The notes under the pieces are model-generated. The model saw only the letters and a program-made list of their open reading frames with translations, ran no database searches and was not told where the DNA came from. 64,000 nt of DNA from Candidatus Desulfofervidus auxilii (lineage in GTDB: Bacteria > Desulfobacterota > Desulfofervidia > Desulfofervidales > Desulfofervidaceae): positions 1 to 64,000 of the forward strand of contig JAJSZS010000009.1 in NCBI GenBank assembly GCA_030262725.1. Direction: 5' to 3'. This document shows positions 1 to 44,436 of this stretch, piece by piece. Position numbers and translations under genes: made by a program. Position 1 is the first letter of the stretch, and every line of letters starts with the position of its first letter.

Positions 1-341
1 CTAACTGCGTATTGATAGTAAACAGAACCTGCTGGGTGGAAACCAATTGAGTCAAATGCTGTTTGAGTACTTCCCCAAGCTTGCTTAGAAGCTCCGGGAG
101 CAGTAGTAGGTCTGGCCGCGCAAAGTAAATAATTATCTGTTTCAGCAGCATACGATTCTTCTGCTGTTTTTATTGCATCTATATTTGCCTTTGCCTCGGA
201 AGTTTTTGCTTTATACTGAAACTTCCTATACTGCGGTATAGCAATTGCTGCCAGAATAGCAATGATTGCCACAACAATCATCAATTCAATGAGCGTAAAA
301 CCTTTGTTTTTCTTTCTTAATTCATGCCATTTTCTAAACAT
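1..341 (-). CDS. Type IV pilin / pseudopilin, major-pilin-like (partial)
   Basis: The 113 visible codons begin with a short charged leader ending at Gly14, followed by the class III prepilin signature [20 protein letters not shown]. Prepilin peptidase would cut after Gly14 and leave an N-methylated Phe with Glu at mature position 5. The hydrophobic helix runs to about residue 36 and is followed by a polar region with alternating Lys and Ala ([21 protein letters not shown] is typical of the helix end of small pilins). The start is fixed by an excellent ribosome binding site, AAAGGAGGTG, at 347-356. The C-terminal part lies outside the window, so pilin and type II pseudopilin cannot be separated by the C-terminus. 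A sigma-54 promoter lies about 110 bp upstream, which favours PilA. Confidence 0.93.
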
Positions 342-388
342 CTTAACACCTCCTTTAATTTTTTTATTTTTATTTATTTTATTTTCTT

Positions 389-402
389 ATCACCTCCTTT
401 CT
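389..402 (-). promoter_or_regulatory. Second extended Shine-Dalgarno copy in the pilin leader
   Basis: Read on the minus strand this is AGAAAGGAGGTGAT, fully complementary to the usual bacterial 16S rRNA 3' end. It lies about 35 bases upstream of the functional pilin Shine-Dalgarno (345-356) and has no start codon at a suitable distance. It could be a ribosome standby site, a relic of a leader duplication, or chance. The match to this organism's own 16S rRNA is assumed. Confidence 0.4.
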
Positions 403-450
403 TTTGTTTTTCATCTCGTCTTTTTCATCTTGTTTGTCCATTTTTTAAAT

Positions 451-467
451 AAGCAAGTTTTGTGCCA
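451..467 (-). promoter_or_regulatory. Sigma-54 promoter of the pilin gene
   Basis: The minus strand reads TGGCACAAAACTTGCTT, which matches the RpoN consensus TGGCAC-N5-TTGC(A/T) with GG and GC exactly 10 bp apart (-24/-12). Transcription would start near 440 and give a leader of about 100 nt before the pilin ATG at 341. Sigma-54 with PilR control is the usual arrangement for pilA in Gram-negative bacteria. No activator site was identified. Confidence 0.8.
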
Positions 468-518
468 TTTTTTATTTTAGATTTTTAGTGGATTTTTGAG
501 AAAGCAAATGGACTAAAT

Positions 519-577
519 TGACAAAATTTGTCACTTTTTTGGCAAGCCTTGTCAAAGACTTTGATTGTGTATATAGA
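519..577 (+). promoter_or_regulatory. skp promoter with two upstream palindromes
   Basis: TTGTCA (549-554), 17 bp, then TATAGA (572-577) forms a sigma-70-type promoter about 30 bp before skp. Two short perfect inverted repeats lie at it: TGACAAA-A-TTTGTCA (519-533), just upstream of the -35, and TCAAAG-A-CTTTGA (552-564), overlapping the -35. Their position suits an operator, but no regulator can be named. The rest of 342-607 is AT-rich pilin leader and promoter DNA with no further gene. Confidence 0.45.
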
Positions 578-607
578 AAAGGTTAAATTTTTGTAAGGAG
601 GAAAACA

Positions 608-1141
608 ATGAGAAAGGCTTTGTTTTTTGTGATTTCATTTGTATTTTTAAGTTTCAATTTGAATGCGGCTTCTTTTAAAATAGCTATTGTGGATCTGCAA
701 AAGGCATTAAATCTTTGTGAGGCAGGAAAAGCGGCTAAAGCAAAATTGGCTAAAAAATTTGAGGCTATGAGGAGAGAGCTTGAGGCAAAACAAAAAGAGT
801 TAGAAGAATTAAAAAAAGAATTAGAAAAACAAAGCTTGATGCTAAGTCTTGAGGCAAAAAGGGATAAGGAAAGGGAATATGAAAGAAAATTAAGAGATTT
901 TAGAGATTTATATGAGGATTATAAAGAAGAGATGAATATAGCTGAGCTTGAAGCAGTAAAACCTATTTTAAATGATTTAAAGGAGACAGCTGAAGAGATT
1001 AGGAAAAAAGAAGGATATGTAATTGTTCTTGAAAAGAATACAGCTGGAATTATCTGTTATGAAAAAGAGGTAGATATTACTGATAAAGTTATTAAGCTTT
1101 ATAACAAAAAATGGAAAGCAAGACAGAAAGGGGAAAAATAA
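608..1141 (+). CDS. skp: OmpH/Skp family periplasmic chaperone
   Basis: 177 residues. A signal peptide (about residues 1-20, basic start, Phe/Val/Leu-rich core, cut near LNA) is followed by the family start [14 protein letters not shown] long Lys/Glu-rich coiled coil (about 45-115) makes the tentacle helices typical of Skp, which holds unfolded outer-membrane proteins in the periplasm. The start is set by GTAAGGAGG a few bases upstream. Its stop codon overlaps the lpxD start by one base (TAATG). Skp next to lpxD-fabZ-lpxA is the classic order in Gram-negative genomes. The upstream neighbour bamA, often present in that order, is absent here. Confidence 0.9.
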
Positions 1142-2193
1142 TGAAGTTGAAAGAAATTGCTGATTTCCTTCAAGCAGAACTTATCGGGGATGGTGATTTA
1201 GAAATTAGTGGTTTAGCTCCAATTGAAGAAGCAAAGGAAGGAGATATTACTTTTGTTGCTAATCCTAAATATAAAAAATACTTGGTAACGACAAAGGCTA
1301 GTGCTGCTATTGTATCTTTGGATGTAAAAAAAGCACCTATAGCATTAATTAGAACAAAAAATCCTTATTTAGCCTATGCCTTAATCGCACAGTTGTTTTA
1401 TAAATGGCCATATGGATTTAAAGGTATAAGTCATCAAGCATTTATTGCAGAAGATGTATATTTGGGAAAGGATGTAACTGTTTATCCCTTTGTTTGTATT
1501 GAAAGTGGGGTAGAAATTGGTGATGAAACAATAATTTTTTCAGGTGTTTATATTGGGCCAGATGTAAAAATTGGAAAAAAAACTATTATTTATCCTAATG
1601 TAGTTATTATGGCCGCTTGTGAGATTGGCAACCATGTGATTATTCATAGTGGAGCAGTGATTGGTAGTGATGGTTTTGGGTTTGCTCCTGATGATAAAGG
1701 AAGATATGTAAAGATTCCTCAGTTAGGAAAGGTTAAAATTGAAGATGATGTGGAAATTGGTGCTAATACTACAATTGATAGGGCGGCTATAGGAGAGACA
1801 GTAATTAAAAGGGGGACAAAGATTGATAATCTTGTTCAGATTGCTCATAATGTGCAAATTGGTGAAGATAGCATTATTGTAGCTCAGGTAGGTATTGCAG
1901 GTAGTACAAAAGTAGGCAATAAAGTAACACTTGCTGGTCAAGTTGGTATTGTTGGTCATATAGAGATTGGTAATGGGGTGACAATAGGTGCAAAAAGTGG
2001 AGTGCCTAGGTCTGTTCCACCTGGTGTGGTTGTGGCTTCTGGTGTGCCAGCTATGCCATATCGGACATATCTTAAAACTATGTCAATTTTGCCTAAGTTG
2101 CCAGAAGTTGCGGCCAAATTAAAGAAAATAGAGAAAGAATTGGATGTTTTAAAAAATAAGGTTGGGGTGAAAGATGAAGAAGAGAACTCTTGA
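1141..2193 (+). CDS. lpxD: UDP-3-O-acylglucosamine N-acyltransferase LpxD
   Basis: 350 residues when started at the ATG overlapping the skp stop, with AAAGGGG at the right distance. An upstream in-frame ATG at 1111 lies inside skp and lacks this spacing. The N-terminal LpxD domain (about 1-100) is followed by a left-handed beta-helix of hexapeptide repeats (about 105-320) containing the catalytic-His segment QIAHNVQIG and the glycine-rich region [14 protein letters not shown]. The C-terminal helix ([17 protein letters not shown]) is typical. The enzyme adds the second acyl chain to the UDP-glucosamine lipid A precursor in the cytoplasm. Its last 20 bases overlap fabZ. Confidence 0.95.
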
Positions 2194-27024: not shown

Positions 27025-28280
27025 TTAATAAAAACCTCTCTCGCTTCGGCCACAGTATACAGGGAGCCTGTAATGAGAACAAGGTCATCTGGGTATGCGA
27101 TGGAAAGGGCTATTTTTATAGCCTTTGGAATAGAAGGAATAGTTTTAATTTCTATTTTTTGATTATATTTTTGGACTATTTTTTTTAAAGATTCAGGCTC
27201 TGCTGCACGTTCTATTTTAGGAGCAGTTAAAATTAAAATATTTGCCAAAGGAAACAATATTTTTATCATTTTTTTTATATTTTTATCTTTCATAATACCT
27301 AAAATAAGAATCAAATTGTTAAATTGATAAAGAGAAAGCGTTTTTTTTAATGCTGATATTCCAGCAGGATTGTGAGCGCCATCCAAAACAACTTTTGGTT
27401 TTTCGTTTACTACTTCCCACCTTCCTGGCCAAGTAACTGTTTTTAAAGCAATTCTTATGGCTTTTTCTTCTATTAAAAAACCTTGATTTTCTAAAAGTTC
27501 TATTGCTCCCAGAGCTAAAGTAGCATTTTTTATTTGATGTGGCCCAAACAGATTGAGAGAAAGAGAAGGAATATATTTTTTAATACCAAGATAATTAAAT
27601 CCTATTTTTGTTTTATAATGCTTTATGTCTTTACCTAATCGATAAATTGGGGCTTTCTTCATCTGACAAATCTTTGAGAATAAAGAAATAAGATGTTTTT
27701 GTGTTACGCCAGTAATAAGAGGTTTTTTTGATTTGATAATACCAGCTTTTTCAAAAGCAATCTTTTCTAATGAATATCCAAGCCAACGCTGATGTTCAAG
27801 GGCAATATTCGTAATAATACTTACCTTTGGCAATAAAAGATTAGTAGCATCAAGTCTTCCTCCCATTCCAGTTTCTATTACTGCTAAATCTACTTTATTT
27901 TCAGCAAAATAGATAAAACAAAGAAGGGTGAGGAATTCAAAATAAGTAAGCTCATTATTAGATAGATATTTCTTTATTTCTTTAACAAAAAAAGAAAATT
28001 CTTCCTTTGAAATAAGTTTACTATTTATTTGAATGCGCTCTCTTACAGAATGTAAATGAGGAGAAGTAAAAAGCCCTACTTTATAGCCTGCTGTTTCTAA
28101 AATCTTTGCTAAAATAACAGCAGTAGAGCCTTTACCATTTGTACCAGCAATATGAATAGCAGAAAAATGTAATTGAGGCTGACCAAAGTAAGAAAGTGCT
28201 AAAGCAATATTGTCTAATCTTGGTTTTATTCCCTTTGCCTGAAGTTTGTTAATAAAATTGATTGCTTCTTTATAATACAT
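27009..28280 (-). CDS. folC: Dihydrofolate/folylpolyglutamate synthase FolC
   Basis: 423 residues of the Mur-ligase superfamily. Walker A is IHIAGTNGKGSTAVILAKIL; SPHLHSVRERIQIN and VIETGMGGRLDATN are typical of FolC, and the C-terminal domain begins PGRWEVVNEKPKVVLDGAHNPAG. It adds glutamate to dihydropteroate and folates. First gene of the minus-strand group folC-lptD-DUF72-DUF4388. No clear Shine-Dalgarno. Confidence 0.93.
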   Translation of the reverse strand: MYYKEAINFINKLQAKGIKPRLDNIALALSYFGQPQLHFSAIHIAGTNGKGSTAVILAKILETAGYKVGLFTSPHLHSVRERIQINSKLISKEEFSFFVKEIKKYLSNNELTYFEFLTLLCFIYFAENKVDLAVIETGMGGRLDATNLLLPKVSIITNIALEHQRWLGYSLEKIAFEKAGIIKSKKPLITGVTQKHLISLFSKICQMKKAPIYRLGKDIKHYKTKIGFNYLGIKKYIPSLSLNLFGPHQIKNATLALGAIELLENQGFLIEEKAIRIALKTVTWPGRWEVVNEKPKVVLDGAHNPAGISALKKTLSLYQFNNLILILGIMKDKNIKKMIKILFPLANILILTAPKIERAAEPESLKKIVQKYNQKIEIKTIPSIPKAIKIALSIAYPDDLVLITGSLYTVAEAREVFIKCIPE

Positions 28281-34606: not shown

Positions 34607-36392
<1,786 letters not shown>

Positions 36393-37748
36393 ATGAAAGA
36401 GATTGAACATTTAAGATACATAGATACACATATTATTTGGCATCCATTTACACAGATGAAGGAGTATGAGAATGAGAATGCACCTATTATTGTAGCAGGT
36501 GAAGGAAATTATTTAATTGATATTGAGGGGAGACGTTATTTGGATGGTGTTTCTTCTTTATGGGTAAATATTCATGGACATAGGGTAAAGGAGATAGATG
36601 AGGCAATAAAGAGACAGCTTGATAAGATTGCCCATTCCACCCTTTTAGGTATTGGTAATGTGCCTTCCATTCAATTGGCAGAAAAGCTTATAAAGATTAC
36701 ACCAAAATGTCTTACCAAAATATTTTTTTCAGACAATGGTTCTACTGGAGTAGAGATTGCCTTAAAGATGGCATTCCAATACTTTCAAAATATTGGAAAG
36801 AAAGAAAAAAAGAGGTTTCTTTCCTTTTATAATGCATATCATGGAGACACTTTAGGAGCAGTTGGTGTAGGGGGTATCTCCCTTTTTCATCAAATTTATG
36901 GAGATATTGTTATTTCATCTATAAAGGTACCTTCTCCCTATTGTTATCGCTGTCCTTATAAGAAAGAGCCATTAAATTGTAATAAAGAATGTTTTAAAGA
37001 TTTAGAAGAAAATATAAGAAAATATGCATCTTCTTTAGCTGCTGTTATTATTGAGCCCATTATTCAGGCAGCAGCAGGTATGATTGTTTTTCCTAAAGGA
37101 TATTTAAGGTTTTTAAGAGAACTATGTAATCATTATGAAATACTGCTTATCTGCGATGAAGTAGCAACTGGTTTTGGCAGAACAGGTAAGATGTTTGCCT
37201 GTGAACATGAGGATGTTTGCCCTGATTTTATGGTCTTAAGCAAAGGGATTACAGGTGGATATCTACCTTTAGCAGCGACATTAACAACAGAAGAGGTCTA
37301 TCAGGCATTTTATGATGATTATGAAAAGTTAAAGACATTCTTTCATGGTCATTCTTATACAGGCAATCCTTTAGGATGTGCAGCTGCTATAGCAAATATA
37401 GAACTATTTGAAAAAAATAAAGTAATAGAAAGACTTTCTCCTAAAATTGATTTGCTCAAAAAGGAGCTTGAAAGATTTTTTGAGCTTAAGCATGTAGGGG
37501 ACATAAGGCAGGCAGGTTTCATGGTTGGGATAGAGCTTGTAAAGGAAAAAAGAAAAAAAACTCCTTTTCCTTTAAAGGAGCGTATAGGGCATAAAGTCAT
37601 TAGAGCAGCAAGAAAAAGGGGATTAATTATAAGACCACTTGGTGATGTGATTGTTATCCTTCCACCATTAAGTATTAGTGAAGAAGAATTAAAGTTTCTT
37701 TGTCATGTAGTTTATGAAAGTATAAAGGAAGTAACAGATGGAATGTAA
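36393..37748 (+). CDS. bioA: Adenosylmethionine-8-amino-7-oxononanoate aminotransferase BioA
   Basis: 451 residues of class III aminotransferase. Landmarks: IIWHPFTQMKEY at the start (SAM-binding side), FSDNGSTGVEIALKMA, YHGDTLGAVGVGG, LICDEVATGFGRTG, PLP-Lys in LSKGITGGYLPLAAT and FFHGHSYTGNPLGCAAA. It follows bioD directly and overlaps the hydrolase gene by 11 bp. Confidence 0.95.
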   Translation: MKEIEHLRYIDTHIIWHPFTQMKEYENENAPIIVAGEGNYLIDIEGRRYLDGVSSLWVNIHGHRVKEIDEAIKRQLDKIAHSTLLGIGNVPSIQLAEKLIKITPKCLTKIFFSDNGSTGVEIALKMAFQYFQNIGKKEKKRFLSFYNAYHGDTLGAVGVGGISLFHQIYGDIVISSIKVPSPYCYRCPYKKEPLNCNKECFKDLEENIRKYASSLAAVIIEPIIQAAAGMIVFPKGYLRFLRELCNHYEILLICDEVATGFGRTGKMFACEHEDVCPDFMVLSKGITGGYLPLAATLTTEEVYQAFYDDYEKLKTFFHGHSYTGNPLGCAAAIANIELFEKNKVIERLSPKIDLLKKELERFFELKHVGDIRQAGFMVGIELVKEKRKKTPFPLKERIGHKVIRAARKRGLIIRPLGDVIVILPPLSISEEELKFLCHVVYESIKEVTDGM

Positions 37749-38388
37749 GATATTTTTAAAAAATGTTTTAGATACACCCACCTATTTTTTATCTCCTCCT
37801 TCTGCCAAAGATAATGCCATTGTTTTACATGGTTATGGAAGTAATAAAGAGGAGATAATTGGTTGTGCCTTAACAATAGCAAGGGCAAATTTTAATGTAT
37901 ATGTGCCTGACTTACCAGGTCATGGAGAAAATAAAGAAACATTTAATTTAAAGACATTAAAAAAATTTGTTGAAGGACTTAAAAGATTTGAATTTAAATT
38001 AGCTCTTGGTCATAGCCTTGGGGCAAGGATTGTCTTTCAGCTTCCTTGTGAAAGGATTATCTTAATTTCCCCTCCTTTAGAAGCTATATTTGATGGGACA
38101 AAAAAAGAACTTTTAACTATTTTAAGAGCAAGAAGGGTAAAAGAAGAAAAATATTATGAAGGTTTAAGAGATGCCTTGAAATCATTGCCAATAACTTTTA
38201 AAGCATTTAAGGAAATTTTGTTTATTTATGCAAAAAATGATCTTTTAACTGTCAAAGAGGCAGCAAAAAGGGCAAGGGTATTAAATATAAAAATAGAAAT
38301 TATCCCTGATGCAAATCACAATGATGTTATTTCATCTCAAATTACTTTTAAAAGGATAAAAGAATGGTTATCCCATTCTCTTTATTAG
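37738..38388 (+). CDS. Alpha/beta hydrolase, likely pimeloyl-ACP methyl ester esterase
   Basis: 216 residues. LHGYGSNKEEII carries the oxyanion-hole HG, GHSLGA is the nucleophile elbow with Ser, and a late Asp (YAKNDLLT) and His (DANHNDV) complete the triad. Position in the operon, between bioA and bioC, matches the step that needs removal of the methyl ester added by BioC (performed by BioH, BioG, BioK, BioJ or BioV in different bacteria). It is shorter than BioH and has no obvious lid insertion, so I give no symbol. Overlaps both neighbours. Confidence 0.72.
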   Translation: MECKIFLKNVLDTPTYFLSPPSAKDNAIVLHGYGSNKEEIIGCALTIARANFNVYVPDLPGHGENKETFNLKTLKKFVEGLKRFEFKLALGHSLGARIVFQLPCERIILISPPLEAIFDGTKKELLTILRARRVKEEKYYEGLRDALKSLPITFKAFKEILFIYAKNDLLTVKEAAKRARVLNIKIEIIPDANHNDVISSQITFKRIKEWLSHSLY

Positions 38389-39113
38389 CTGATTTATATG
38401 AAAATAAAATAAATTTTTGGTTTTATTATTATATTGCAGATGCCTTATGTAAATTAATAAAAGATTTTTCTTTCAAAAATATTTTAGAGCTTGGAGCAGG
38501 TACAGGTATCTCTACGCAGGTTTTAAAAAGATACTTTCCTAAGGCAAAGATTTTTGCTACTGATCCATGTATAGAGATGTTGAGATTAGCAAAAAATAAG
38601 AATTTAAATAATGTAGATTATCTTGTTTTAAAAGCAGAGGATGTTATTTCTCTTAAAGAAAAATATGACCTTATCTTTGGTAACTTTTGTTATCATTGGT
38701 TTGAAAATGGTACAGCAATTAGATTAAAAAAATGTCTTAAAAAAGATGGTGTTTTAGCCTTTTCTATACCAATCAATTGTGCAGATGGTCTTTTAGGAAA
38801 TAAGTTACTTTTAAATGTTTATCGCAATTTAAAAAAACATTATCATTTTTCTCATAGACCTTCATTGAGGTTTAAAGAGATATTAAAAGAGTTTAAGGAC
38901 TTTAAATTATCTTACCATTTTCTCTCTTTTTCTGAATCTTATTCTGCTAATGAATGGTTTAAAATCTTATATAGTCGTGGTTCATGGCATTATCTTTTTA
39001 AAGGATATATAAAAGAGGCAAAAGATTTTTGGTTAAAATATGAAAATAAAAAAGAAATACCTTTAAGATGGCATATTTTACTTTTAATTGGGATTAATAA
39101 TGGAAAATCTTAA
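38364..39113 (+). CDS. bioC: Malonyl-ACP O-methyltransferase BioC
   Basis: 249 residues with the SAM-binding motif I ILELGAGTGISTQVL, acidic motif FATDP and YDLIFGNFCYHWF, as in BioC. It methylates malonyl-ACP to prime pimelate synthesis by the fatty acid system. The start overlaps the hydrolase, and the end overlaps bioB. The family is weakly conserved, so the operon position carries part of the assignment. Confidence 0.85.
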   Translation: MVIPFSLLADLYENKINFWFYYYIADALCKLIKDFSFKNILELGAGTGISTQVLKRYFPKAKIFATDPCIEMLRLAKNKNLNNVDYLVLKAEDVISLKEKYDLIFGNFCYHWFENGTAIRLKKCLKKDGVLAFSIPINCADGLLGNKLLLNVYRNLKKHYHFSHRPSLRFKEILKEFKDFKLSYHFLSFSESYSANEWFKILYSRGSWHYLFKGYIKEAKDFWLKYENKKEIPLRWHILLLIGINNGKS

Positions 39114-40077
39114 ACTTATTGAAGAAATAGCAAAAAGGATATTAAAAGGTAAAGATATCTCCTTTGATGATGCTTATTATTTAATGAAAATAAAAGGGGC
39201 AGATATTTATCATCTTCTTGCTTGGGCAAATCAGATAAGGGAGAAATTTAAAGGTAAAATAATAAATTTTTGTGGTATTATCAATGCAAAGTCAGGAAAA
39301 TGCAGTGAAGATTGTGCCTTTTGTGCCCAATCAATTTATCATAAAACAAAAATAAGAGTTTATCCTTTAATGAGTGTTAAGGAGATTGTTTCTGAGGCAA
39401 AAGAGAGGATAAAACAAGGGGCAAAAAGAATAAGTATTGTAACAAGTGGACGAAAAGTAAATAATGAAGAATTAAAGATAATCTGTGAGGCAATAAGATA
39501 TATAAAAGATATGGGGGTATTTAGCTGTGTATCTTTAGGGTTACTTGATAAAGAAGCACTTTTAAAATTAAAAGAAGCAGGTTTAAATCGTTATCATCAC
39601 AATCTTCAAACATCAGAGGATTTTTATCCAAAGATATGTACAACTCATAGTTATGAAGAAAAAATAAATACTATAAAAGATGCAAAAGAAATAGGGCTTT
39701 CTGTTTGTTGTGGTGGCATTATGGGGATGGGAGAAAAAGAAGAGGATCAAATAAAATTAGCATTTTTATTAAAAAAATTAAATGTAGATGCAATACCAAT
39801 AAACTTTCTTCATCCAATTGCTGGAACAAGATTGGAACATTTAAAACTTTTAACTCCACTTAATTGCTTAAAGATTATTGCCATTTATCGTTTTATTTTG
39901 CCAGATAAAGAGATTATTATCTGTGGTGGAAGGGAATTAAATTTAAGGCAATTACAAAACTTTATGTTTGTTGCTGGAGCAACTGGCACTATTGTTGGAA
40001 ACTATCTCACTACAAAAGGACGCACCCCAGAGGCAGATATAGAATTGGCAGAGGATATGGAGTTAAAAATTAAATAA
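39100..40077 (+). CDS. bioB: Biotin synthase BioB
   Basis: 325 residues from the ATG at 39100, which has GGGAT at proper distance; a TTG four codons earlier is less likely. Radical SAM motif GKCSEDCAFCAQS, YHHNLQTS, GGIMGMGEK and INFLHPIAGTRLE are BioB signatures. It inserts sulfur into dethiobiotin using a 4Fe-4S and a 2Fe-2S cluster, and closes the operon. Its last 15 bp overlap the convergent aroA. Confidence 0.95.
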   Translation: MENLKLIEEIAKRILKGKDISFDDAYYLMKIKGADIYHLLAWANQIREKFKGKIINFCGIINAKSGKCSEDCAFCAQSIYHKTKIRVYPLMSVKEIVSEAKERIKQGAKRISIVTSGRKVNNEELKIICEAIRYIKDMGVFSCVSLGLLDKEALLKLKEAGLNRYHHNLQTSEDFYPKICTTHSYEEKINTIKDAKEIGLSVCCGGIMGMGEKEEDQIKLAFLLKKLNVDAIPINFLHPIAGTRLEHLKLLTPLNCLKIIAIYRFILPDKEIIICGGRELNLRQLQNFMFVAGATGTIVGNYLTTKGRTPEADIELAEDMELKIK

Positions 40078-41322
40078 CTCTGTTTCCCAAAATCCTGGGA
40101 AGGATTTTTTTACACAATCTGGATTTATGATTTCAATCTCTGGTACTTTAAGTCCAGCAATAGCAAAACTCATAGCAATACGATGGTCATTATACGTTTC
40201 AATAATGGTTCCATGTGGTTTTCCACCCTCAATAATAAGACCATCCTTTTTTTCTTCTACATTTATACCTATCTTTTTTAACTCATTAGCTAAAGCATGG
40301 AGACGGTCACATTCTTTATAACGTAAATGGGCAACATTTTTTATTTCTGTAACACCTTTTGCAAATGCAGCTACTATAGCTAAAGTAGGTACTACATCAG
40401 GCATATTGTTCATATCAACACTGATCCCTTTTAAATCTTTACCTATTACTTTTATTCCATTTTCTTTTATTTCAACCTTACAGCCCATTTTTTCTAAGAT
40501 CCAAACAAATCCTATATCTGCTTGAGCAGAATCAGCATTAATTGGGCTTACTGTAATTTCACCTTTTAAAATAGCAGCTGCTGCCCAAAAATAAGATGCA
40601 GTTGAACAATCACCCTCAATGATATAATCTCTTGCCTTATAATTACCCTTTGGCACAAAAAAATATTGATAATCTTTATTTTCTACTTGGATACCAAAAT
40701 CCTTCATTACTTTAAGAGTTAAATCTACATATGGTTTTGAAGAAAGTTTTCCTTTTACTTCAATAATACAATCATTTTCTGCATAGGGGGCAGCTAATAA
40801 AAGACCTGAAACAAATTGGCTACTAATAGATGCATCTATCTGTGTTTTTCCACCTTTAATACCATCTGCCTTAATAATCACTGGAGGACAACCATTGTCT
40901 TTTTCTGTATAAGCATCTACTTTCCATATCTTTAATGCATCAATTAAAGGTTGAATTGGTCTTTGTTGCATGCGTTCATTGCCTGTCAAGATAAATTGCC
41001 CTTTTCCTAAAGCACAAATGGCTGTTAAAAGACGCATTGATGTACCTGAGTTTCCTAAATAAATTGGATTTTTAGGAGAAGATATCTTTCCATTCTTACC
41101 ATATATTTTAGCTGTATTATTTAAGGTTTCTATTTTAATACCCATTTGCTTTAAAGCAGATATGGTCAATAAGGTATCTTCAGCTAAAAGCAAATTTTTA
41201 AGTAAAGATTCACCTTCTGCCAAAGCAGCAACAATCAATGCCCTATGTGTTAAACTCTTTGAACCAGGAACATTGATATCTAATTTTATCCCTTCATTTA
41301 AGGGAAGGATTTTTCTTTTCAT
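40063..41322 (-). CDS. aroA: 3-phosphoshikimate 1-carboxyvinyltransferase (EPSP synthase)
   Basis: 419 residues. PGSKSLTHRALIVAALAEG, LGNSGTSMRLLTAICAL, RMQQRPIQPLIDAL, DCSTASYFWAAAAIL, DMNNMPDVVPTLAIVAAFA and YNDHRIAMSFAIAGL show a complete two-domain EPSP synthase. It joins shikimate 3-phosphate and PEP. Last gene of the minus-strand shikimate operon; it overlaps aroE by 29 bp. Confidence 0.95.
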   Translation of the reverse strand: MKRKILPLNEGIKLDINVPGSKSLTHRALIVAALAEGESLLKNLLLAEDTLLTISALKQMGIKIETLNNTAKIYGKNGKISSPKNPIYLGNSGTSMRLLTAICALGKGQFILTGNERMQQRPIQPLIDALKIWKVDAYTEKDNGCPPVIIKADGIKGGKTQIDASISSQFVSGLLLAAPYAENDCIIEVKGKLSSKPYVDLTLKVMKDFGIQVENKDYQYFFVPKGNYKARDYIIEGDCSTASYFWAAAAILKGEITVSPINADSAQADIGFVWILEKMGCKVEIKENGIKVIGKDLKGISVDMNNMPDVVPTLAIVAAFAKGVTEIKNVAHLRYKECDRLHALANELKKIGINVEEKKDGLIIEGGKPHGTIIETYNDHRIAMSFAIAGLKVPEIEIINPDCVKKSFPGFWETELFNF

Positions 41323-42130
41323 TTTTCAATACTTCTTTTGCTACTTTAAACATCTCTTCTACTGGTGCCTCCTTTCCTGTCCACAATCTAAATTGTTCTG
41401 CCCCTTGATAAACCAGCATCTTTAACCCTATTACTGTTTGACAACCCATTTCCTCTGCTTCTCTTAAAAGTCTTGTTTTTAAAGGATGATAAACAATATC
41501 CATAACTAAAGAAAAATTTTTAAGGATATCCTTTTTTAAAGGAGTATCTTCTATCTTTGGCCACATACCTACTGGTGTAGTATTGATTAATCCATAAGCC
41601 TTTATTTCTGAAGCCTTTTCTAAAGGTAATGCCTTTACCTTAAATTCATTTGCTAAGGCTAGCCCTTTTTCATAAGTCCTATTTAAAATAATTATTTCAG
41701 CTCCTTCCTTTTTAAGTCCATAAACTACTGCCCTAGCTGCTCCACCAGCACCAAGGACAATAAATCTTTTCTTTGAAATTTCTCCTTTTTCTTTTAAGGA
41801 AAGGATAACACCTAACCAGTCAGTATTAAAACCAAAAAGCTTTCCATCTTTATTTACCACTGTATTTACTGCCCCAATCTCTTTTGCTGTTTCATCTATT
41901 TTATCTAAAAAAGACATAATTTCTACTTTATGTGGTATAGTCACACTTAGCCCTTTAATGCCAAGTGCCCTTACTCCCTTTATAGCTGATGCTAAATCAT
42001 TTACTTCAAATGCTACATAAATAGCATTAAGATTATAATAATTAAATGCTATGTTTTGGATGATAGGACTTAAACTATGCCTTACTGGATAACCAATTAC
42101 AGCATAAACATCTGTTTCTGCATTAATCAT
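41294..42130 (-). CDS. aroE: Shikimate 5-dehydrogenase
   Basis: 278 residues. Substrate site GYPVRHSLSPIIQN and SVTIPHK with catalytic Lys, TDWLGV, NADP Rossmann motif VLGAGGAARAVVYGL with NRTYEK, and INTTPVGMWP. The C-terminus has VYQGAEQFRLWTG. It reduces 3-dehydroshikimate. It overlaps the upstream aroB'-type gene by ATGA and aroA at the other end. Confidence 0.95.
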   Translation of the reverse strand: MINAETDVYAVIGYPVRHSLSPIIQNIAFNYYNLNAIYVAFEVNDLASAIKGVRALGIKGLSVTIPHKVEIMSFLDKIDETAKEIGAVNTVVNKDGKLFGFNTDWLGVILSLKEKGEISKKRFIVLGAGGAARAVVYGLKKEGAEIIILNRTYEKGLALANEFKVKALPLEKASEIKAYGLINTTPVGMWPKIEDTPLKKDILKNFSLVMDIVYHPLKTRLLREAEEMGCQTVIGLKMLVYQGAEQFRLWTGKEAPVEEMFKVAKEVLKNEKKNPSLK

Positions 42131-43119
42131 TTTTCCATAATAGTCTCTTCTACTTTAATGCCAAAATGGCGACCTGCCTTTTCTATCGCTACAACTACTT
42201 CATCACCTGGTTTTAACTGCACTACAGAAATAGGTTTACCTTTAGGGGTGGTAAGACGGATTGTCTCAGCATTTTGCAATATAGTAGAAATTGTTTCCCC
42301 TTCTACCTCTGCCTCAACTAATAAAAGTGGACGCCTTTCTACCTTTACCCTACCTACTACACCAGGTCTAGTTTCACCTTGATGATTCACAATTAATACT
42401 TCATCTCCTGCCTTTAATTCAGAAAGATACTTTGTCTTCCCACCTATTACTCTGATATAGGCATGTACTGGACCTGCATTTACCCTAAATGGTCTTGGAG
42501 TAACATAAGGATTCTCTACATTTTCTGCATGGACAAGGAATAATCCACCACTGCTATTTCCCACAAGCATACCTTCTCCAATAGCCATTAAATCACATGT
42601 ATCTACACAAACACGATAACCCATCCCCAGTTGTTTAATATTTTTTACTTTAGCCACTTTAACTTCTATCTTCTCTGACCACCTTTTTACTAAATCCAAA
42701 ATCTTTTTTACCTCACTAATATCCTTTGTATTTACTACTACTCCATCTACACCTCTTTCTAATATTCCAAGTAAAGTTCTAGCTTCTTCTGCAGTGCTTG
42801 CCTCAGCAAAGAGATTTGTTGTTTGGGCAACAAGGTTTTCTAATGGAATAATCTTCCAATCTTTAGCTGTGACAACAACAATCTTTTCCTTTGTTAATTT
42901 TAAAATCTTTTCTTCATCTTCTTTACTTTTTATCTCATAAAAAACCACATCTTTATCAATCTTTATATCTCCATCTGCTGCTACTGTTTTCATCCTTCCC
43001 AAAGCCTTTACTGCTTCAGTCTTTCCTTCTTCTACTACAATGGCATCTGCCCCACCCTCAATAGCGGTAGTAACTAATTTTTTCTGCCAAGGTATAACTT
43101 TTACCCATACTTTTTTCAT
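42127..43119 (-). CDS. 3-dehydroquinate synthase II (archaeal type)
   Basis: 330 residues of the MJ1249 family, unrelated to classical AroB. The N-terminal half is barrel-like (KKVWVKVIPWQKKLVTTAIEGG), and the C-terminal half has GMGYRVCVDTCDLMAIGEGMLVGN, NAGPVHAYIR and KYLSELKAGDEV. It oxidatively deaminates and cyclises ADTH to 3-dehydroquinate with NAD. Preceded by its partner enzyme gene, one base after that stop. Confidence 0.92.
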   Translation of the reverse strand: MKKVWVKVIPWQKKLVTTAIEGGADAIVVEEGKTEAVKALGRMKTVAADGDIKIDKDVVFYEIKSKEDEEKILKLTKEKIVVVTAKDWKIIPLENLVAQTTNLFAEASTAEEARTLLGILERGVDGVVVNTKDISEVKKILDLVKRWSEKIEVKVAKVKNIKQLGMGYRVCVDTCDLMAIGEGMLVGNSSGGLFLVHAENVENPYVTPRPFRVNAGPVHAYIRVIGGKTKYLSELKAGDEVLIVNHQGETRPGVVGRVKVERRPLLLVEAEVEGETISTILQNAETIRLTTPKGKPISVVQLKPGDEVVVAIEKAGRHFGIKVEETIMEK

Positions 43120-43120
43120 C

Positions 43121-43939
43121 TTAATCCTCCAATTCTTTCATAGCTTCCTCAACACTTATATTTTCATGGACTATCCTAGCGATAGCCCTTACTATCTTTC
43201 TTGGATCTTTATGTTGGAAGGCATTCCTTCCAATAGAAACACCTGCACCACCTGCTTCTATTGCCCCCTTTACCATTTCTAAAACTGCTTTATCTGAATC
43301 CATTTTTGGCCCGCCAGCAATCACTACTGGCACTGGACAGCCTTCAACTACCTTTCTAAATGTCTCTGATGAACCTGTATAAGATACTTTTACTACATCT
43401 GCCCCCAATTCTGCCCCTAATCTTGCACAATGGGCAATAATATCTGGATCATAACTATCTTTAATCTTTGGCCCTCTTGGATAAACCATGGCTAATAAAG
43501 GCATACCCCATTCTAAAGCCTTCTGTGCAACTTCACCAAAATCCCTTAACATTTCCCTTTCATTCTCATCACCAAGATTAACATGGATAGATACACCATC
43601 TGCTCCTAATTTTATCGCCTCTTCTACTGTACAAACAAGTGTCTTTGTATTTGGATGTGGAGATAAAGAAGTGCTACCAGAAAGATGAATAATTAAACCT
43701 ACATCAGGGCCTCCACCTCTATGACCTGCTGTTACAATTCCTTTATGAATAACAATGGCATTTGCTCCCCCAAGCGCTACTTCATTGATTATTGTCTTCA
43801 TATCTGTTAAACCTAAAATAGGACCAACAGTAACACCATGATCCATAGGTATGATTACAGTCTTTCCTGTTTCTCGATTAAAGATCCTTTCTAACCGTAT
43901 CCTTTTTCCAATCTGTTTCCCTGCTAAAGCAATTCCCAT
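43121..43939 (-). CDS. 2-amino-3,7-dideoxy-D-threo-hept-6-ulosonate synthase (ADTH synthase)
   Basis: 272 residues, class I aldolase-like barrel of the MJ0400 family. [46 protein letters not shown] (Schiff-base Lys) and [17 protein letters not shown] are typical. It makes the first committed compound of the archaeal-type dehydroquinate route. The ATG at 43939 is chosen because AGGAGGT ends five bases before it; a TTG at 43945 lies inside the ribosome site. It is the first structural gene behind the attenuator. Confidence 0.92.
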
Positions 43940-43966: not shown

Positions 43967-44000
43967 AAAAAAGCCGTGAAGGTTCACTCCACGGCTTTTC
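43967..44000 (-). terminator. Rho-independent attenuator terminator of the shikimate operon
   Basis: On the minus strand AAAAGCCGTG (5' arm, 43999-43990) pairs with CACGGCTTTT (3' arm, 43978-43969), with loop GAGTGAACCTT, and runs into TTTTTT (43972-43967) and TATTTT. It stands 22-30 bp before the first structural gene, inside the 5' leader, so it can only be regulatory. Confidence 0.88.
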
Positions 44001-44083
44001 TATTTCAGCCGTGGGCGCCTGTTTGGTCTGCCCACGGCCTTTCTCCTTTTTATAGTTTCAAAAGACAGTGGGCAGACCCCACT
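44001..44083 (-). promoter_or_regulatory. Antiterminator/alternative pairing segments of the aromatic attenuator
   Basis: Minus-strand segments in transcript order. A is GGTCTGCCCAC (44078-44068), within the leader peptide codons. B is GCCGTGGGC extended to GTGGGCAGACC (44038-44025). C is GCCCACGGCT (44016-44007). D is the terminator's 5' arm AGCCGTGG (43996-43989). A pairs perfectly with B over 11 bp, B with C over 9 bp, and C with D over 8 bp. A:B frees C to block the terminator; B:C frees D to form it. Confidence 0.8.
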
Positions 44084-44126
44084 TATAATAATAAAAATAA
44101 CCGTATTTTAAACCTACCTTCTTCAT
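44058..44126 (-). CDS. Aromatic leader peptide of the shikimate operon
   Basis: A 22-residue ORF reads MKKVGLKYGYFYYYKW and then GLPTVF: five Tyr, two Phe and one Trp, with YGYFYYYKW clustered. It starts about 12 nt after the predicted transcription start and ends with TGA. The Tyr/Trp codons lie immediately 5' to pairing segment A, so a ribosome stalled on uncharged tRNA-Tyr (or Phe/Trp) leaves A free, while a ribosome that reaches the stop covers A. The nearby upstream AAAAAGAG is a weak ribosome binding site. Too short to have been called by ordinary gene finding. This is a sequence-based inference with strong internal logic. Confidence 0.85.
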   Translation of the reverse strand: MKKVGLKYGYFYYYKWGLPTVF

Positions 44127-44144
44127 CTCTTTTTCAATCCGAGT

Positions 44145-44173
44145 CTATTAACATGCAAAAAAAATGTTGTCAA
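44145..44173 (-). promoter_or_regulatory. Promoter of the shikimate operon
   Basis: Minus strand TTGACA (44173-44168), 17 bp, TAATAG (44150-44145), with an upstream TGT giving an extended -10. The predicted start is near 44138. Its -35 overlaps that of the divergent promoter. Confidence 0.75.
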
Positions 44174-44205: not shown

Positions 44206-44436
44206 ATGTTAATTGTAAAATGTGCTAAATGTAAAAGAAAAATATTTAAATATTTAAAAATCGGAAAGGGGCGTTTATTACGTTGCTGGAAGGAACGGAT
44301 AATTAAAAATTATAGTGTGCAAGAAGGTATTAAAGTTAAATGTCAATGTGGTAATGTGATTGGCATTGATAAAGGAAGATGGATAAAAATGAAACAAAAT
44401 GCTTTTATTTATTCAGGTACAGTAATAAGGAAATAG
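44206..44436 (+). CDS. Small zinc-ribbon protein
   Basis: 76 residues beginning MLIVKCAKCKRKIFKY, with CxxC, an isolated Cys (LLRCWKERII) and a second CxC (VKCQCGNVIGID); these can form a zinc ribbon. Rich in Lys, as for nucleic acid binding. No function known. An ATG 14 codons upstream would place the start inside the promoter, so ATG 44206 is chosen; there is no Shine-Dalgarno, and the promoter geometry predicts a leaderless or near-leaderless mRNA. Confidence 0.6.
   Translation: MLIVKCAKCKRKIFKYLKIGKGRLLRCWKERIIKNYSVQEGIKVKCQCGNVIGIDKGRWIKMKQNAFIYSGTVIRK

Follow-up and report, generated by a model that had tools for sequence, protein, structure and literature searches.

What regulates the archaeal-type entry into aromatic amino acid synthesis in Candidatus Desulfofervidus auxilii? 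The question is raised by a short leader on the minus strand of the window analysed here, a stretch of 64,000 nucleotides (positions 1 to 64,000 of contig JAJSZS010000009.1, assembly GCA_030262725.1). The leader precedes an operon for 2-amino-3,7-dideoxy-D-threo-hept-6-ulosonate (ADTH) synthase, 3-dehydroquinate (DHQ) synthase II, shikimate dehydrogenase and EPSP synthase. Judged from its sequence, it is very probably a ribosome-mediated transcription attenuator that would raise expression of ADTH synthase, DHQ synthase II, aroE and aroA under a shortage of charged tRNA-Tyr or tRNA-Phe. If this is true, it fills the gap in how the archaeal-type (ADTH) aromatic entry is regulated in sulfate-reducing and syntrophic bacteria, which are largely uncultured.

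The leader and its operon

Profile matches for all four genes bear out the archaeal-type shikimate operon proposed in the initial annotation (Table 1). The ADTH synthase gene begins with an ATG at 43939 that is preceded by GGAGG, and the closest relatives of its product (86–92% identity) come from Candidatus Desulfofervidaceae, a family placed in the phylum Thermodesulfobacteriota, and from one deltaproteobacterial MAG. At the far end of the operon, the 3' end of aroA overlaps by 15 bases (40063-40077) with that of a biotin-synthase-like radical SAM gene on the plus strand, ahead of which a biotin gene cluster apparently lies (35736-40077). A small cysteine-rich zinc-ribbon-like ORF (44206-44436, plus strand) diverges from the attenuator promoter.

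The promoter, the 22-codon leader ORF, the three alternative pairings A:B, B:C and C:D, and the terminator whose 5' arm is segment D all lie where the initial annotation had placed them. Helices A:B, B:C and C:D are mutually exclusive, and the series ends in the intrinsic terminator D:E. Folding of the window leader is far more stable than that of dinucleotide shuffles (z = -7.4, with none of 200 shuffles as good). TTGACA also occurs at a comparable position in relatives (loci L003, L004, L006, L008 and L086).

Table 1 Features of the leader and operon in the window, with the second attenuator copy of the same genome
Feature	Position	Strand	Basis or remark
-35 box TTGACA	44173-44168	minus	read directly
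-10 box TAATAG	44150-44145	minus	17 nt spacer to -35 box; read directly
Leader ORF MKKVGLKYGYFYYYKWGLPTVF, then stop	44126-44058	minus	22 codons, 8/22 aromatic
Predicted sensing codons 10-14, UAU UUU UAU UAU UAU (Tyr Phe Tyr Tyr Tyr)	44085..44099	minus	masked folding; robust for 10-13
Trp codon 16, predicted unsensed	44079..44081	minus	masked folding
Segment A GGUCUGCCCAC, within leader ORF	44068..44078	minus	pairs with B; covariation, 93 sequences
Segment B GGCCGUGGGCAGACC	44025..44039	minus	partner of A or C
Segment C GCCCACGGCU	44007..44016	minus	partner of B or D
Segment D AGCCGUGGA, terminator 5' arm	43988..43996	minus	partner of C or E
Segment E CUUCACGGC, terminator 3' arm	43973..43981	minus	pairs with D
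Terminator U6 run	43967-43972	minus	read directly
Helix A:B	44078-44068/44035-44025	minus	11 bp, no mismatch, no G-U
Helix B:C	44039-44030/44016-44007	minus	9 bp; 10 bp counting one G-U
Helix C:D	44014-44007/43996-43989	minus	8 bp
Terminator helix D:E	43995-43987/43981-43973	minus	9 bp; stem extendable to 21 bp using A-rich flank
ADTH synthase	43121..43939	minus	TIGR01949, 387.8 bits, cut-off 299
3-Dehydroquinate synthase II	42127..43119	minus	NF002627, 489 bits, cut-off 392; PF01959
Shikimate dehydrogenase aroE	41294..42130	minus	TIGR00507, 286.6 bits, cut-off 200
EPSP synthase aroA	40063..41322	minus	TIGR01356, 478.7 bits, cut-off 287
trpE attenuator copy, leader MMGMMLNYWWWLLRTAME	L118 1490-1650; contig C10 ~27300-27460	minus	identical segment order

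In the window (44083-44067) and in leaders L003, L004 and L006, a stretch lying further upstream pairs either with A or with the end of the leader. It corresponds to the Shine-Dalgarno region in L003 and L006, to the codons preceding the aromatic run in L008, and to a small AGUGGG/CCCACU hairpin in the window. This upstream stretch is a possible sixth segment.

Ribosome position and the predicted choice of hairpins

In the proposed mechanism, a ribosome paused at codons 10-13 would leave A unoccupied, and free A would capture B ahead of the synthesis of C. C would then capture D ahead of the synthesis of E, so that no terminator would form and the operon would be transcribed. The leader stop sits at the end of A, and a terminating ribosome would therefore cover A; B:C would form, D would be left for E, and transcription would end near 43967.

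Folding of the window RNA with the ribosome masked, using an assumed ribosome footprint, reproduced both states as they had been proposed, with A:B and C:D on stalling and B:C and D:E at the stop. The first pair was obtained when the mask was placed at codons 10-13, with footprints between +11 and +17 nt, and the second with the ribosomal A site at Trp16, Phe22 or the stop, in the case of Trp16 at all footprints tried. The outcome at codon 14 (Tyr14) varied with the footprint, and a stall at Tyr8 allowed A:B to form, yet D:E beat C:D at equilibrium. Results at 37 °C and at 55 °C, chosen as closer to the growth temperature, were concordant save for a weaker A:B on early stalling at 55 °C. By this model the window copy should sense Tyr and Phe and not Trp, because a ribosome stalled at Trp16 covers A and so terminates transcription. 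Folded with no ribosome at all, the model RNA adopts A:B and C:D, and an untranslated leader is predicted to give read-through.

The relatives were folded in the same manner at 88 loci, with RNA that stopped at the end of B; once C is included, B:C prevails at equilibrium in most loci. A:B exceeded 0.5 at 79 loci when the ribosome was stalled at the first aromatic codon, at 73 for the middle one, at 63 for the last and at 10 for the stop; these 10 are relatives in which, under the assumed footprint, A can still pair with B while the ribosome sits at the stop. With that footprint, the model thus has the geometry of an attenuator, in which a stall at cognate codons frees A and a stop at the end of the ORF covers it. 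In most relatives equilibrium folding by itself fails to split the two states, and the model depends on the order of folding.

Searches of the window genome for other regulators detected neither a Trp repressor nor a match to PF02081 for TRAP (the B. subtilis control was positive), and no T-box (RF00230) scored above the gathering cut-off while controls were positive. Control by a riboswitch, TRAP, a T-box or a DNA repressor was thus unsupported by the genome searches.

Conservation, leader codons and genes

The same kind of leader precedes the ADTH synthase gene in all five Desulfofervidaceae genomes, each time with a different aromatic-rich peptide (VNFYYFYFWYY, NYYFYFWYYWF, SYFYYFWYYWF and GFYYFSYF in those other than the window). 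For the wider search we built a covariance model, R1, from ten leaders with B:C as its sole paired helix, segment D included and segment E excluded. At E ≤ 0.01 it matched at least 163 of 395 sampled genomes of the phylum, mostly metagenome bins and counted irrespective of shared descent; the figure is a lower bound because ten candidates were scored per genome. There was no match in 40 other genomes bearing an ADTH synthase gene, mostly from other phyla. An aromatic leader ORF, defined as the best short ORF ending near A with at least five aromatic residues per eight codons, stands with its codon run just upstream of segment A in 87% of 95 loci; the corresponding figures are 2.2% for dinucleotide shuffles and 0.5% for other positions in these loci. 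This criterion is independent of R1, which is blind to ORF content, and the ORF taken was the most aromatic candidate in loci and controls alike. The leader stop lies 15–41 nt past the start of A in all loci except one. Conservation of leader ORF and arms among relatives had been set beforehand as a test by which the initial annotation could be refuted, and both proved to be conserved.

The arms were compared in an alignment of 93 sequences fitted to B:C, in which A:B and C:D played no part in the fitting. Pairing is 90.5% for A:B, where nine of the 11 pairs show compensatory changes, 94% for C:D, with such changes in five of seven pairs, and 98% for B:C, with four of eight. The covariation scores were attained by none of 500 shuffles, and pairing fell to 32–49% when the partner was shifted by one to three columns. 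For instance, changes of GCCGUGG to GCCGCAG, GCCAUGG or GCCGCGG are mirrored jointly across several arms. The core of segment A, GUCUGCC, stays constant while the leader reading frame varies (..GLP.. or ..VCP..), and as its sequence is kept across reading frames, the RNA rather than the peptide end is conserved at A. Because the arms recur with compensatory changes, and aromatic leaders at 87% against 0.5–2%, the element lies beyond chance. Watson-Crick pairing is higher for C:D (88%) than for D:E (81%) or B:E (77%), with the caveat that the search model included D and lacked E; this ranking is expected if C must capture D ahead of the synthesis of E. Leader codons of close relatives have a modest third-position excess (162 vs. 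119 and 123), weak as main evidence.

Genes behind the element were classed from the best 95 matches, which leaves out weaker, more diverged members. They encode ADTH synthase (31), DAHP synthases of two kinds (23 and 8), periplasmic binding proteins (8), TrpB2 (6), TrpE (5), shikimate kinase (2) and the indolepyruvate oxidoreductase alpha subunit (1). Leaders that precede trpE, trpB2 or iorA have a Trp majority in 12 of 12 cases, compared with 1 of 72 others (Fisher p ~1e-13, uncorrected for descent). The sole exception, with leader NWCWWWAW, precedes a DAHP synthase gene (L171, 535-1721, minus strand) whose product is possibly a Trp-specific isoenzyme. All eight binding-protein leaders carry a run of Phe or Tyr without Trp, which suggests that these proteins are Phe or Tyr transporters. 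The genes concerned are of the Peripla_BP_6 kind and follow Phe-only or Tyr-rich leaders (L102, L105, L144, L151, L155, L173, L175 and L199). Leaders with Trp runs occur in L108, L161 and L186 (WWWWW, WGWWWW and WWWW), the first of which (1-1600, minus strand) stands ahead of an indolepyruvate ferredoxin oxidoreductase alpha gene. Three aromatic leaders (L100, L170 and L191) precede genes for GNAT-domain, PAS/sensor-kinase-like and GAF-domain proteins, which are not obviously genes of aromatic metabolism. The window genome itself holds a second copy ahead of trpE (Table 1), and related copies preceding trpE occur in genomes G002 (L119) and G003 (L124). Since leader codons indicate which amino acid is important to the cell, the element predicts gene specificities: if the reading is true, periplasmic binding proteins whose leaders carry Phe or Tyr only are assigned to Phe or Tyr uptake, and the DAHP synthase of L171 to Trp supply.

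In 80 of the 93 copies a U-run directly follows C, so that B:C serves as a first terminator upstream of D:E. This run is missing from the aro leaders of all five Desulfofervidaceae, where B:C can therefore act only by withholding C from D. Compared in this way, the five-segment form of the Desulfofervidaceae looks derived from a two-terminator switch through loss of the U-run. We give roughly even chances to a wider reading, in which a single ancestral module, copied from gene to gene, controls much of the phylum's aromatic supply. It would cover the two kinds of first enzyme together with shikimate kinase, trpE, trpB2, iorA and a periplasmic binding protein gene, as one switch with two terminators, re-addressed to Phe, Tyr or Trp by exchange of leader codons. 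In the Desulfofervidaceae it would have been reduced to a relay of five segments that reads through by default when the leader is not translated. About 100 natural attenuator variants, in which one segment pairs with two partners, would offer a test bed for the evolution of switches.

Several other explanations can be weighed against this evidence. The initial annotation had proposed that the leader senses Trp together with Tyr and Phe; Tyr and Phe sensing stands through the stall at codons 10-13, whereas the Trp part fails in the masked folding. An attenuator for all three amino acids could draw on Trp codon 16 behind the Tyr run, and on Trp codons within the run in several relatives (e.g., L090 and L106), but the stall at Trp16 in the window copy leads to the terminator, and the same genome has a separate Trp leader ahead of trpE, which makes Trp-inclusive sensing unlikely. 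We consider it highly improbable that an aromatic amino acid or an RNA-binding protein chooses directly between A:B and B:C, as in a riboswitch or protein-bound leader, and that the ORF is incidental. In favour of this, the GUCUGCC core of A is unusually constant across families, perhaps beyond the needs of pairing. However, codon runs that match the gene are set at a narrow spacing from A, the leader stop almost always falls right behind A, searches of the window genome detected no TRAP, Trp repressor or T-box, and no relevant Rfam family reached its cut-off in the window or in 20 homologous loci.

The least probable account sees in the element tandem intrinsic terminators that arose by hairpin duplication and act as a fixed filter or insulator, with the leader ORF and the C:D complementarity devoid of function. 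D does resemble B, and E resembles C, so that some C:D complementarity could stem from duplication of a terminator hairpin; the U-run behind B:C in most relatives fits as well. Against it, A covaries with B over nine pairs although A lies outside any terminator, and the aromatic leaders carry codons matched to their genes. C:D also surpasses D:E and B:E in Watson-Crick pairing, subject to the ascertainment caveat given above, and B:C is kept in the Desulfofervidaceae, where no U-run follows it. The ribosome-mediated attenuator thus remains the preferred reading.

Relation to known attenuators

With the enteric trp and pheA attenuators the window element shares a leader peptide rich in cognate codons, exclusive hairpins selected by stalling, and an intrinsic terminator. 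It differs in having five segments, with A:B and C:D rather than a single antiterminator in the stalled state, and in that read-through is the outcome predicted for its leader when untranslated, whereas untranslated leaders of E. coli trp terminate. The initial annotation had set the five segments against the four of trp; the five-segment logic holds, but more than four segments are not unprecedented, as the his leader of E. coli is described as having six. There, too, the outcome of one early choice is relayed through more than four segments to the terminator. The element differs from that leader in its aromatic codons and, in most relatives, its two serial terminators.

Among Rfam families, Trp_leader (RF00513) gave no hit above the gathering cut-off in 59 genomes, and one weak match in the window genome lies 3' of an ATP-synthase gene. 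The trpB motif (RF04312) of Firmicutes and Fusobacteria likewise precedes aromatic and transport genes and has a terminator at its end (PMC11109978). For this family the window scored 21 bits against a cut-off of 59, and none of 20 homologous loci, trpB2 loci included, reached the cut-off. An Rfam 15 scan of the window and 20 homologous loci at gathering level returned nothing relevant, and permissive scans returned low-scoring unrelated families alone.

Trp attenuators of Corynebacterium and Streptomyces have conserved complementary triples in several helices and classical leader peptides (PMC1262725), and thus share multi-helix complementary segments and leader peptides with the window element. 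They belong to Actinobacteria and to Trp genes, and no tandem-terminator relay is described for them in the part of that source considered here. Within the literature covered, which leaves subscription papers largely aside so that an earlier description is possible, an aromatic attenuation mechanism in the phylum is undescribed. In 2009, elements 5' of Geobacter aroG-2 (Gmet_R0069/GSUR082) and iorAB (Gmet_P1827/GSU1739.1) were reported (PMC2700814, Table 2) as a predicted short RNA element or conserved sequence, and neither a leader peptide nor a mechanism was described for them. These elements precede DAHP synthase and indolepyruvate oxidoreductase genes, kinds that carry the element here, and they are probably members of the family. 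Overall, the proposed mechanism is the classic one of trp, phe and his, and the putative phylum-wide regulon that uses it is little-described.
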